Assembly: GCA_937141935.1 (NCBI GenBank) | Contig: CAKZQS010000005.1 | Location: 62,001 to 126,000 of the forward strand | Direction: 5' to 3' | DNA length: 64,000 bases | Source: an uncultured Ectothiorhodospiraceae bacterium | GTDB taxonomy: Bacteria > Pseudomonadota > Gammaproteobacteria > Nevskiales > Oceanococcaceae | Shown: positions 48,184 to 51,813 of the stretch, in pieces | How positions within the stretch are numbered: position 1 is the stretch's first letter | Layout of the letters: the number at the start of each line of letters is the position of its first letter | Position numbers and translations under genes: made by a program | Notes under the pieces: generated by a model | Databases searched by the model: none | The model's input: only the letters and a program-made list of their open reading frames with translations | What the model was told of the DNA's origin: nothing

Positions 48184-48315
48184 TTAGGCGCCCTCGCGCT
48201 TGCGCTTGCGCGCCTCCTTGCGTGCCAGGTGGCGGAACTCGCGAACGGTCAGCAGCACGCCGACCAGCGTCATCGAGAAGCAAAAGGCTCCAAACATCAG
48301 CAGGTAATCACTCAT
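48184..48315 (-). CDS. 43-residue single-pass membrane protein (not in ORF track)
   Basis: A 43-residue peptide with one membrane helix (YLLMFGAFCFSMTLVGVLLTV) and a strongly basic cytoplasmic tail (REFRHLARKEARKRKREGA). It is too short for the ORF track but its ATG at 48315 overlaps the end of the 60-residue gene by 8 bp, the arrangement of translationally coupled genes, and the hydrophobic/basic layout is not that of a random frame. No family is recognised. Confidence 0.65.
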   Translation of the reverse strand: MSDYLLMFGAFCFSMTLVGVLLTVREFRHLARKEARKRKREGA

Positions 48316-48490
48316 TGCGGTCCCCCAGCAGCGCGGACACCTTGAAATAGATGCCAAAGCTCAGAATCGAAGGGATCCACATCGCGGTGAACAGGCCCTC
48401 TTCGCGCTGGCCGCTGAACCACAGCAGGCCGGAGATGGCAAAGGCGACGGCCACCGCAGTGAGTATGAAAACGTCGGACAACCTCAACAT
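48308..48490 (-). CDS. 60-residue membrane protein
   Basis: A 60-residue protein with a clear membrane helix (VFILTAVAVAFAISGLLWFS, residues 7-26) and a second more amphipathic segment (FTAMWIPSILSFGIYFK). It is preceded by AAGGGG at a suitable distance. It heads a two-gene unit with the 43-residue protein and is divergent from the 89-residue membrane protein; the 107-bp gap between them contains the TGTC/GACA repeats that probably bind the nearby MerR regulator. No family is recognised. Confidence 0.65.
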   Translation of the reverse strand: MLRLSDVFILTAVAVAFAISGLLWFSGQREEGLFTAMWIPSILSFGIYFKVSALLGDRNE

Positions 48491-48522
48491 GGTCTAACCC
48501 CTTGGCTATGACGGTGGTAGAT

Positions 48523-48585
48523 ATGTCTAGACAATGTCTAAGACAGGTGTCACTATCTGACCATGTACAGGTTTTGTCAAGGACA
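48523..48585. promoter_or_regulatory. TGTC/GACA operator array between divergent small membrane-protein genes
   Basis: TGTCTAGACA (48524-48533) and TGTCTAAGACA (48535-48545) are palindromes whose ATGTCTA starts are exactly 11 bp apart; a third related element TGTCAAGGACA lies at 48575-48585. A possible -35/-10 pair for the rightward gene, TAGACA (48528) and CACTAT (48551) 17 bp apart, would be covered by the repeats. Confidence 0.6.
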
Positions 48586-48597
48586 GGAGCGCAAGGC

Positions 48598-48867
48598 ATG
48601 AGCCCGCGACCACCCGAAGGCCCGTCGGCCCGATCCACCCCCCTGGAAGTGAACCTGCGCCGCCCCGGGCCGCGCCTGCGCCGCGCGATGCGCCTGGCCG
48701 GCTGGGCGGGCGTACTCGTCGGCGTGGGGGCGCTGGGCGCGCTGGGTTACACGGCCTTGCAGTCGCCCGCGCCGCTGGCGGAGGCTGCGTTGAGCGAGTA
48801 CCGCACGCAGGCGCGCTGGCTGATCGGCGGCCTGATGGTTGCCGCGCTGGGCTTCTTCGACCGCTAG
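48598..48867 (+). CDS. 89-residue two-helix membrane protein
   Basis: An 89-residue protein: a basic Pro/Arg-rich N-terminus of about 30 residues, membrane helix 1 (LAGWAGVLVGVGALGALGYTAL), a short periplasmic loop, and helix 2 (WLIGGLMVAALGFF) ending FDR. Caggag sits 9 bp before the ATG at 48598; the ORF-track start at 48502 would read through the operator array and is rejected. It converges with the MerR gene. No family is recognised. Confidence 0.65.
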   Translation: MSPRPPEGPSARSTPLEVNLRRPGPRLRRAMRLAGWAGVLVGVGALGALGYTALQSPAPLAEAALSEYRTQARWLIGGLMVAALGFFDR

Positions 48868-48977
48868 GCGCGGGCCCCGCCCCTCCCCGCCCCTCCCAGG
48901 CCCGCCCCGGGGTCATCGCAGGGCCCCCTTACGCGGGCTCGGGTCGCGGGCTCGCTGCGCGGCCCTACTGCGCGCCC

Positions 48978-50000
48978 CTATTGCGCCGCGGGGGTCTCCA
49001 GCTCATCCGCCCAGCCTTCCTGCGCCGCCAGGCGCAGCAGCGCGGATTCGACGGTGTGCCGCGCGTGCCCGGCCGAGGCCCGCAGCGAGGCGTGCAGCGC
49101 GGCGTCGTTGGCATTGGCGCTCTCGCACTGGGCCGAATAATCCTCGAAGGCGGCCAGCGCCCCAATCAGATCCGCCAGATGGCGAGGGCATTCACAGCTC
49201 AGCGGGCTGGGCCGCTGGCGCACCTGTTCCAGCAGCGGCGCGGCAAAGCGTGCCGCCGGCGCCTGGGCCTCGCCGGCCGCGCCACGCGCGCTGCGCTGCA
49301 GCCGCAGAACGGCGGCCAGTTCCGCGGGCTCGCCCGGCCGCCGCAGGCAAATCACCCCCGCGTCCAGCAAGCCGCGCAGCGCGCTGCGGGGCGCAAAGTC
49401 ATAGATCAGCAGCGCGCCCGTGGCGACGCCGGCCTGCGTCAGCGCCGCCAGCAGGCTGGCGGCGCGTTCGGGGGTCAGTTGCGGGGCGTTCACGACCACG
49501 GCAATGCCATCGACTGCCGCCGCGGCATCGGGGCTCGCGCCCTCGCGCGACTGCGCCGCGCGCCGGAGCCAGTCGGCCAGTTCGGTTTCGTCCGGCAGCT
49601 GCGCACTCAAGGTGAAATCCGCCTGCTCCAGCAGGCCGGACTGCAGGCCGTCCGCCGGCCCCAGCCACAGCAGCTGCTGCGGTACTCCGGCCGCGGCCGC
49701 CGCCGCCGGGGGCGCGGCCCGGGCACCGGACTTGGCGTGGCTCGCCGGCGGCAGGACCTGCAAGCGCGACCGCAGCGCCGCCTCCGGCAGCTGCGCGATG
49801 TCGCCGATGCGCTCGCCAGCGGCCGTCAGCCGTGCCATCAGCTGCAGGCGCTGGATGTCGGCCTCGGCGTACAGGCGGATGTTGCTCGCGTCGCGCCGCG
49901 GGCTGACCGCCGCGTAGCGGCGCTCCCAGATGCGAATGGTGTCGGCCGAAACGCCGGACAGGGCCGCCGCCTGGCGGATGCGGTAGTGGGCCTCGCTCAT
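48978..50000 (-). CDS. MerR-family regulator of the CarH/LitR (light-responsive) type, B12 motif absent
   Basis: A 340-residue regulator. The N-terminal MerR winged HTH is typical of the CarH/LitR/MlrA branch: YRIRQAAALSGVSADTIRIWERRYAAVSPRRDASNIRLYAEADIQRL. After an Ala/Pro linker comes a Rossmann-like domain (about 135-260) but the cobalamin motif DxHxxG is missing. The C-terminal block SCECPRHLADLIGALAAFEDYSAQCE with its Cys set and the helix after it is seen in the B12-independent relatives known from light-responsive pseudomonad systems. It is coupled by ATGA to the 77-residue gene. Its own operator is probably the 11-bp-period repeat upstream of that gene. Confidence 0.82.
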   Translation of the reverse strand: MSEAHYRIRQAAALSGVSADTIRIWERRYAAVSPRRDASNIRLYAEADIQRLQLMARLTAAGERIGDIAQLPEAALRSRLQVLPPASHAKSGARAAPPAAAAAAGVPQQLLWLGPADGLQSGLLEQADFTLSAQLPDETELADWLRRAAQSREGASPDAAAAVDGIAVVVNAPQLTPERAASLLAALTQAGVATGALLIYDFAPRSALRGLLDAGVICLRRPGEPAELAAVLRLQRSARGAAGEAQAPAARFAAPLLEQVRQRPSPLSCECPRHLADLIGALAAFEDYSAQCESANANDAALHASLRASAGHARHTVESALLRLAAQEGWADELETPAAQ

Positions 50001-50230
50001 GCCGCCAGGCCCAGGCTGCCCGGCGCCAGCCAGGCCAGGCCCGCCAGCAGCAAGGCCAGCGCGAGCGCGCCGCCGCCCAGCCACTGCGCGCGCCGTCGCC
50101 ATTGCCGGCGGCGGCCCTGGCGCAGCAGCGCCTCCAGCTCATCGCGCGACATCACGTCCCAGTCCCAATGGCTGGTCAGCCGCTCCTTGACCTTGCAGTC
50201 GCTTTCTCGCTTGGGGCGCTCTTCGTCCAT
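49997..50230 (-). CDS. 77-residue membrane protein coupled to the MerR gene
   Basis: A 77-residue protein: a charged cytoplasmic N-terminus (DEERPKRESDCKVKERLTSHWDWDVMSRDELEALLRQ), a basic stretch RRRQWRRRAQW and one membrane helix (LGGGALALALLLAGLAWLA). It overlaps the MerR gene by ATGA and is the promoter-proximal gene of the pair, so it may be a partner of the regulator, for example a membrane anchor or anti-factor; this is inference. The predicted transcription start falls on its ATG, which would make the message leaderless. Confidence 0.65.
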   Translation of the reverse strand: MDEERPKRESDCKVKERLTSHWDWDVMSRDELEALLRQGRRRQWRRRAQWLGGGALALALLLAGLAWLAPGSLGLAA

Positions 50231-50236
50231 GGACCC

Positions 50237-50265
50237 ATCCTAGCACCGCGCCGGGGTCGTGACCA
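50237..50265 (-). promoter_or_regulatory. Candidate promoter of the 77-residue gene and merR
   Basis: On the minus strand TGGTCA (50265-50260) and TAGGAT (50242-50237) are spaced by exactly 17 bp. The start would fall at about 50230, the A of the ATG. The TTGTC direct repeats lie just upstream of the -35 box. Confidence 0.45.
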
Positions 50266-50269
50266 GGGT

Positions 50270-50286
50270 TTGTCCATTCCTTGTCT
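50270..50286. promoter_or_regulatory. TTGTC direct repeat with 11-bp period upstream of the merR operon
   Basis: TTGTCCATTCC followed by TTGTCTA gives two TTGTC starts 11 bp apart (50270 and 50281), the same period and core as the ATGTCTA pair at 48523 and 48534. It sits immediately upstream of the candidate -35 box. Confidence 0.55.
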
Positions 50287-50397
50287 ACCCTCCTAGGCGC
50301 AGCGCGGCGCCATCCGTCCGGGCCGCGCAAACGCTGTGATAATTTGACGCCACGGCGAAGCACCGCCGCTTTGCCGCCGATTCAGGGACCCCCGCCT

Positions 50398-51402
50398 ATG
50401 GAAGCGCTCGCCGACTTCGCGCTGACCTTTGTCGGCCAGTTGCAGAAGCCCACGCTCGCCTTTTTGCTGGGCGGGATGCTGATTGCGGCGCTGGGCAGCA
50501 AGCTGGTCATCCCCGACGCGGTGTACCGCTTCATCGTGTTCATGCTGCTGATGCGCATCGGCCTGGCCGGCGGCATGGAGATCCGCAACGCGGAGCCGGG
50601 CGACATCTTCCTGCCGGCGCTGATCGCCGTGGCGGTGGGCTGCTTGATCGTGATTCTGGGCCGCGCCGTGCTGCCGCGGCTGCCCGGGGTCAAGGTCGAG
50701 GATGGCATTGCCACCGCGGGCCTGTTCGGCGCCGTGTCGGCCTCGACGCTGGCCGCGGCGATGGTGGTGCTGGATGAGGAGGGCGTGGTCTACGAGGCCT
50801 GGGTGCCGGCGCTGTACCCCTTCATGGATATCCCGGCGCTGGTGCTGGCCATCGTGTTTGCGGGCATCCACCAGCAGCGACAAAGCGGCGCGCACAAGCG
50901 CGTGCGGATCTGGCCCATCGTGGCCGACAGCCTGCGCGGCTCGGCGCTCTCGGCGCTGCTGCTGGGCCTGTTGCTGGGCCTGTTCACGCGCCCTGAGAGC
51001 GTGTTCGACAGCTTTTACGACCCGCTCTTCAAGGGTTTGCTGTCGGTGCTGATGCTGATCATGGGCATCGAGGCCTATGCCCGACTGGCCGAGTTGCGCC
51101 GCGTGGCCCACTGGTTCGCGCTGTACGCCTTCGTGGCCCCGCTGGTGCACGGCCTGCTGGCCTTTGGCCTGGGCACGCTGGCGCACTACGCCACCGGGCT
51201 GAGCCCGGGCGGGGTGATCCTGCTGGCGGTCATCGCCTCCTCCAACTCCGACATCTCCGGCCCGCCCACGCTGCGGGCGGCGATCCCGGCGGCCAACCCC
51301 TCCGCCTACATTGGTTCCTCGACCAGCATCGGCACGCCCATGGCCATCGCCGTGGGCATCCCGCTGTATTTGTCGCTGGGCCACTGGGTGTTCGGGCTCT
51401 AG
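50398..51402 (+). CDS. sbtA: SbtA-family sodium-dependent bicarbonate transporter
   Basis: A 334-residue inner-membrane protein with about ten helices in two inverted halves, matching the SbtA family: FLLGGMLIAALGSKLVIPDAVYRFIVFMLLMRIGLAGGMEI at the first Na+ motif, GLFGAVSASTLAAAMVVLDEEG, and in the second half ILLAVIASSNSDISGPPTLRAAIPAANPSAYIGSSTSIGTP. SbtA imports HCO3- with Na+. Outside cyanobacteria it is found in many proteobacteria, where its role is less clear. The start at 50398 fits the family N-terminus. The PII-like partner follows 87 bp downstream. Confidence 0.93.
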   Translation: MEALADFALTFVGQLQKPTLAFLLGGMLIAALGSKLVIPDAVYRFIVFMLLMRIGLAGGMEIRNAEPGDIFLPALIAVAVGCLIVILGRAVLPRLPGVKVEDGIATAGLFGAVSASTLAAAMVVLDEEGVVYEAWVPALYPFMDIPALVLAIVFAGIHQQRQSGAHKRVRIWPIVADSLRGSALSALLLGLLLGLFTRPESVFDSFYDPLFKGLLSVLMLIMGIEAYARLAELRRVAHWFALYAFVAPLVHGLLAFGLGTLAHYATGLSPGGVILLAVIASSNSDISGPPTLRAAIPAANPSAYIGSSTSIGTPMAIAVGIPLYLSLGHWVFGL

Positions 51403-51443
51403 GTCGATGGCCCACCCCGCCCGCCGCCACCCCGCGCCGCCGG

Positions 51444-51461
51444 CGATGCCCCTGGGCATCG
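51444..51461. promoter_or_regulatory. Intercistronic hairpin between sbtA and sbtB
   Basis: CGATGCCC-CT-GGGCATCG is a perfect 8-bp inverted repeat in the 87-bp gap, 28 bp before the sbtB start. It could set the ratio of the two proteins by partial termination or by protecting the sbtA message. No T run follows. Confidence 0.45.
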
Positions 51462-51489
51462 GCGCGCGCCGCCCACCAGGAGCATCGCT

Positions 51490-51813
51490 ATGACGCACAA
51501 GGCGACCGAGGTCACCATCGTGGCCGAGAAGGTGATCCAGGAGCAGATCGTCGAGATCATCGAGCGCGCCGGCGCCACCGGCTACACGATTCTCGAAGGC
51601 AGCGGCAAGGGCCAGCATGCCCGGCGCACGCACGAGCGGCCCTCGGTGGCCGGTGATGCCTTCGACATCGTCAAGATCGAGGCCATCCTGGGTGACCGCG
51701 CCGCCGCCGAGCAGGTGGCCGACGAGGTGGCGAACACCTTGTTCACCCACTACTCGGGCATCGTCTACCTCGAAGAGGTGGAGATCCTGCGTCGCGCGCG
51801 CTTCTGGCGTTAG
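51490..51813 (+). CDS. sbtB: SbtB-like PII-family carbon-sensing protein
   Basis: A 107-residue trimeric PII-superfamily protein. It has the ferredoxin-like fold signs VTIVAEKVIQEQIVEIIERAGATGYTILEGSGKGQ with a T-loop region (HARRTHERPSVAGDAFDIVKIEAILGD) and LFTHYSGIVYLEEVEILR in the last strand. SbtB binds adenine nucleotides (cAMP, AMP, ADP, ATP) and plugs SbtA. The redox-active C-terminal Cys extension (R-loop) of cyanobacterial SbtB is missing; this protein ends RRARFWR. AGGAG lies upstream. The pairing with sbtA secures the call. Confidence 0.9.
   Translation: MTHKATEVTIVAEKVIQEQIVEIIERAGATGYTILEGSGKGQHARRTHERPSVAGDAFDIVKIEAILGDRAAAEQVADEVANTLFTHYSGIVYLEEVEILRRARFWR

Follow-up and report, generated by a model that had tools for sequence, protein, structure and literature searches.

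A conserved set of small membrane proteins beside a B12-free, LitR/CarH-like MerR regulator: a candidate photo-oxidative switch

Does a MerR-family regulator encoded among very small membrane proteins control their expression, and if so, in response to what signal? The question is raised by a locus (positions 48184-50286) in a 64,000-nucleotide stretch of contig CAKZQS010000005.1 from an uncultured Ectothiorhodospiraceae bacterium (hereafter, the window), which encodes four small membrane proteins of 43, 60, 77, and 89 amino acids (aa) and a MerR regulator of 340 aa. A sequence-only reading of this DNA had described the locus as an undescribed unit, with all four small proteins apparently under the regulator, perhaps in a light or redox response. 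The five genes were found at the place and with the lengths, couplings, and divergence that it reported: the 60-aa and 43-aa genes share 8 nt (ATGAGTGA), 4 nt (ATGA) are common to the 77-aa gene and merR, and the 60-aa and 89-aa genes diverge from each other. Hydropathy analysis also predicted the one or two membrane helices that had been assigned to each small protein, with two strong membrane segments in the 60-aa protein and a single one in each of the other three; a further segment of the 89-aa protein did not exceed the threshold used. The features of the locus are as follows:

48184..48315, minus strand: membrane protein of 43 aa with one helix, the third in the small-protein set (relatives 45-59% identical)
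48308..48490, minus strand: membrane protein of 60 aa with two helices, at the core of the set (60-68% identity, four loci; low dN/dS)
48524..48540, no strand assigned: operator-like direct repeat TGTCTA-N5-TGTCTA, TGTCTAgacaaTGTCTA, 11-bp period, between the predicted promoter and the start of the 60-aa gene
48552..48580, minus strand: predicted sigma-70 promoter TTGACA-17-GATAGT of the 60/43-aa genes (10/12 consensus matches)
48564..48580, no strand assigned: a further operator-like repeat, TGTACA-N5-TGTCAA, which overlaps the -35 box of this predicted promoter
48598..48867, plus strand: membrane protein of 89 aa, encoded divergently and remotely related to the product of the first gene in sets elsewhere
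48978..50000, minus strand: MerR regulator, 340 aa, with CarH-like HTH, Rossmann/receiver-like middle, and CxCPxH C-terminal hairpin
49997..50230, minus strand: 77-aa membrane protein overlapping the start of merR (one clear relative, 34% identical, in locus L117)
50271..50287, no strand assigned: operator-like direct repeat TGTCCA-N5-TGTCTA, TGTCCAttcctTGTCTA, upstream of the 77-aa gene and merR

Genes for an SbtA-type bicarbonate transporter and a P-II-like (SbtB-type) protein (50398-51813) are divergent from the 77-aa gene and merR, with the repeat at 50271-50287 about 110 bp away; control of the two gene pairs may be shared.

The HTH domain of the regulator matches MerR_1, and comparison of a 45-sequence regulator profile with solved structures ranked the DNA-binding domains of Thermus CarH and of CarA-type proteins first (5c8d, 3whp, and 2jml), with the match covering the HTH only. 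A Foldseek search with the AlphaFold model of the regulator (mean pLDDT 88) likewise placed CarH first. Residues 106-243 are predicted to fold as a Rossmann/receiver-like domain (VIA-align Z up to 13.4), and the C-terminal part is predicted to form a helical hairpin with the residues C269-E-C271-P-x-H274, C292, and H303 (denoted CxCPxH), among which C269, C271, H274, C292, and H303 are invariant across 45 regulator homologues. This region had been called a Cys-rich block; the three Cys residues in it are indeed invariant, the label itself being a modest one for a protein with four Cys in total (218, 269, 271, and 292). A motif scan of the protein detected neither the [DE]xHxxG nor the Wx9EH B12 motif, in agreement with the sequence-only reading, and the B12-binding_2 domain (PF02607) was not matched at E up to 1. 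The Pfam and NCBIfam matches comprised HTH families only, with no domain called at the C-terminus, and a search of the CxCPxH domain fold alone against the PDB gave no match below E 1.5 and was uninformative. Relatives of the regulator were found in Burkholderiales, Gammaproteobacteria, and Verrucomicrobia, with roughly 27-43% identity over long matches, and the CxCPxH C-terminal family is common in the first two of these groups. A regulator on a contig labelled Halobacteria archaeon (L001) groups with a gammaproteobacterial one (99/93 support), and it seems likely that this contig was mis-binned.

The sequence-only reading had made conservation at the protein level the test of the small open reading frames (ORFs), and such conservation was found for the 60-, 43-, and 89-aa proteins, the 77-aa protein having one clear relative. 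The 60-aa protein is 60-68% identical to relatives in four other loci, which belong to distant genomes. Across the class, 9 of 369 genomes encode it (one as a short fragment), as do 18 of 399 genomes of the order that includes genome G426 (the two weakest matches being doubtful); it is under strong purifying selection, with dN/dS of about 0.01-0.1 for close pairs. In four other loci, relatives of the 43-aa protein (45-59% identity) are encoded 3' of the 60-aa-like gene, and further loci contain them too. The usual order in most loci is 89-aa-like, 60-aa-like, and 43-aa-like gene on the same strand; in the window, the first of these genes lies on the other strand. Among relatives, the 89-aa-like proteins are 17-34% identical, and because this similarity is weak, they are equated partly by position. 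The single clear relative of the 77-aa protein (34% identity) belongs to L117, a locus with all four small-protein types and no adjoining CxCPxH regulator, and this ORF is the least secure of the four putative genes. High GC content yields many spurious ORFs, and the small genes could be read as such; against this stand the protein-level conservation, the low dN/dS of the 60-aa gene, and the conserved gene order, which refute a spurious origin for the 60- and 43-aa genes and render it very unlikely for the 89-aa gene, so that we consider this explanation of the small ORFs hardly credible.

None of the four small proteins matched a Pfam or NCBIfam family at the curated cut-off or any PHROGs family, and a profile of the 60-aa protein gave no match in the PDB, so that identity with a known small-protein family was rejected across these searches; weak Pfam matches, e.g., to 7TMR-DISM (E 0.0006-0.004), were below the cut-off. 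A search for plasmid relatives also found none. The earlier notion of an undescribed unit stands for the small-protein set, the regulator being of a known kind.

The shared repeats pointed out in the sequence-only reading are real. The exact pattern TGTMYA-N5-TGTMYA occurs at two sites in the window versus 0.01 expected from window shuffles and at four sites across the 3.57-Mb genome, with 0 for the reversed control. Two of the four sites are at the cluster, one precedes an FAD oxidoreductase gene at the locus of a paralogous regulator, and one is on contig 28. The site on contig 28 (L206:7236) lies upstream of a short ORF that begins with a membrane-helix-like segment, in a locus where the gene calls are unreliable. 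In the upstream regions of 83 dissimilar regulator genes, 12 hexamer pairs had a spacing of 11 (versus 0.02 in shuffles), and no other spacing occurred more than once. With a looser hexamer core, 41 pairs at spacing 11 were found upstream of related regulators versus 2.7 in mononucleotide shuffles; the 83-gene test is the cleaner one because the looser core was picked after the first outcome was known. CarH operators are direct repeats of 11-bp period (PMC8156234), and the operator geometry supports the CarH/LitR likeness proposed from the sequence, as does the HTH. Two sigma-70 promoter sites were found in the region versus 0.0 in shuffles. At the promoter predicted for the 60/43-aa genes (minus strand, 48580 to 48552), one repeat pair lies on the -35 box and the other between the -10 box and the start codon. 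The exact TGTMYA 11-bp repeat is absent upstream of the set in most other genomes; the exceptions are L136, with an 11-bp repeat before the set, and L117, with a weaker GTGCAC/TGTACA pair identified by eye.

Seven sets are located beside a CxCPxH regulator, namely, those in the window, L023, L027, L195, L196, L197, and L116; the L116 regulator (the same gene as in L090), which carries CECPEH, had been missed by the script filter. In L198, a regulator HTH near the set is cut by the contig end. The small proteins thus recur beside such regulators in other genomes; most sets elsewhere have no CxCPxH regulator nearby. The neighborhood counts that follow are approximate, since in some stretches of high-GC loci (L206 among them) the gene caller assigned the wrong strand. 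By script, 12 of the 27 sets had a gene for a CxCPxH regulator, a photolyase, a cryptochrome-type protein, or BLUF within 8 kb (fewer independent cases, because several of these loci are closely related), and 15 had no listed light gene near. Of the 57 regulator loci with long flanks, 16 had a neighbor within 5.5 kb that encodes a photolyase, DPRP, BLUF, or a PAS/LOV-like protein. The chance expectation for such neighbors, which we estimate from the few such genes per genome, would be near 1%. Across the class, the set and the regulator showed modest co-occurrence (3/9 versus 21/360, Fisher p 0.016, uncorrected for kinship). Rows bearing the set are spread over the regulator tree (7 changes, no fewer than 5 of them forced; 50 of 500 shuffles as low), and two of the nine labelled rows, L142 and L156, carry the set in the genome but not adjacent to the regulator; by itself, this scatter tells of recurrent gain or loss rather than of function. 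The neighbors of the relatives, of photolyase, cryptochrome, and BLUF type, support the suggested link to light or photo-oxidative stress, light being the putative signal.

Several neighbors deserve separate description. Short PAS/LOV-like proteins are encoded between a fasciclin gene and the set, adjoining the regulator, in three loci (L195:6038-6436, L196:6379-6768, and L198:997-1395); because the LOV Cys motif is replaced in them (GKTPRILQG), a normal LOV photocycle is unlikely. BLUF genes lie near CxCPxH regulators at L196:3331-3759 (Pfam-confirmed) and L197:3554-3982, with a GTP cyclohydrolase I gene in between. No canonical LOV Cys motif was present in the window or the fetched loci, and in the window's own genome, which was searched with the PAS/LOV-like query only, there were zero matches. 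This genome contains no BLUF gene, and no photolyase gene was present in the checked surroundings of the window cluster. It does encode a second CxCPxH regulator (L114, contig 4, 58000-72000) beside a DPRP photolyase-related gene, an SDR gene, and the FAD oxidoreductase gene preceded by the exact 11-bp repeat. In the regulator tree, the L114 paralogue groups with the single copy of a congener (G001), and the window's regulator is on a long branch; neither the cluster nor sbtA could be traced beside typA in this congener. Given the long branch and the lack of the cluster beside typA in the congener, either lateral gain of the cluster or its loss elsewhere may have taken place, and the long branch also implies that the function of the window's regulator may have drifted.

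Among the known light-responsive regulators, CarH, or class I LitR (Thermus thermophilus and Myxococcus xanthus), resembles the window regulator in the HTH, its best profile and fold match, and apparently, to judge by the sequence pattern, in an 11-bp direct-repeat operator. In CarH, a helix bundle is followed by a B12-binding Rossmann domain, whereas the predicted order in the window regulator, HTH, Rossmann-like domain, and helical hairpin, would be the reverse, and because the B12 motifs are absent, the window regulator is not a class I LitR. Class II LitRs (PplR1-3 of P. putida and PmlR2 of P. mendocina) appear to be similar to it as B12-independent regulators of the LitR repressor type. 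The footprinted sites of PmlR2 lie over the -35 box and between the start site and the start codon (PMC9758184), as do the repeats at the predicted 60/43-aa promoter, although the PmlR2 sites are N12-spaced. Class II genes have photolyase, SDR, FAD oxidoreductase, and folE neighbors (PMC9758184), and genes of these types also neighbor the CxCPxH relatives. Unlike the window regulator, however, class II proteins contain the B12-binding_2 domain, and their operator is T(G/A)TACA-N12-TGTA(C/T)A (TGTACA-N12-TGTACA) in place of the N5 pattern, so that in both domain and spacing the regulator departs from class II. Class III LitR (Burkholderia multivorans) occurs in Burkholderiales, has a C-terminus without a known domain, and does not need B12 (PMC9758184, PMC6739363), and it is reported to show a light-dependent absorption change without B12 (PMC9758184). 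The window regulator likewise has a C-terminus in which no domain was called and lacks the B12 motifs, its CxCPxH family is also common in Burkholderiales, and class III would be its likeliest home. In E. coli, the MerR-type regulator BluR is paired with the BLUF photoreceptor BluF (PMC9758184); the relatives in L196 and L197 are comparable in having a BLUF gene near, unlike the window's genome.

On balance, and with moderate confidence, we take the cluster to be a LitR/CarH-like photo-oxidative switch, probably near class III, in which the regulator represses itself and the small proteins; as far as the sequence can tell, it would work as a LitR/CarH repressor. In the dark or in unstressed cells, a MerR oligomer would bind the 11-bp direct repeats, both those in the gap that separates the divergent small-protein genes and the one before its own operon. 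The bound regulator would block the 60/43-aa promoter, with one repeat pair on the -35 box and one past the -10 box, and would limit its own expression from the upstream site. Light, or oxidative stress caused by light, would release the regulator, either via a separate photoreceptor or via its Cys/His domain, allowing the small membrane proteins to be made. They would probably form a small complex in the inner membrane, with a protective or tuning role for the membrane or the respiratory chain under photo-oxidative stress. It is the operator position that suggests control of the small proteins, which the sequence-only reading had extended to all four; the 77-aa protein is less supported as a member of the conserved set. 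Tentatively, one could go further and view the three small proteins as an undescribed light- or singlet-oxygen-induced membrane complex under a B12-free LitR-like regulator that senses via its own Cys/His domain, a possibility that we consider rather unlikely in this full form.

The main rival to a light-linked switch is one that works without light and answers to oxidants or a metal through its Cys/His domain, where the CxCPxH...C...H residues would bind a metal or an iron-sulfur cluster or form disulfides, and the photolyase neighbors of the relatives would mark broader oxidative-stress regulons. The invariance of C269, C271, H274, C292, and H303 fits such a switch, as do the lack of a B12 motif in the regulator and of BLUF in the genome, and in V. 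cholerae, the blue-light response proceeds via the oxidant-linked ChrR and a MerR-like protein (PMC5241685). The recurrence of photolyase, DPRP, and BLUF genes beside the relatives argues against it, and so does the reported absorption change of class III LitR, to the extent that the putative class III membership of the regulator holds; we regard this alternative as possible but somewhat doubtful.

That the regulator acts mainly on itself and on distant genes, with the set being a separate envelope or respiratory module located here by chance, is distinctly unlikely. In its favor, most sets elsewhere have no CxCPxH regulator nearby, and most have no exact repeat, but the operator-like repeats fall exactly in the 60/43-aa promoter and the adjacency of regulator and set recurs in scattered regulator lineages.

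The light-response regulons of non-phototrophic bacteria include many genes of no known function, as stated for P. putida (PMC9758184). A conserved three-gene set that recurs beside such regulators and photolyases would be a concrete candidate for an effector of the light response, and the 11-bp repeats, together with the conserved Cys/His domain, would amount to an operator rule and a shared domain for a B12-free branch of LitR/CarH regulators.
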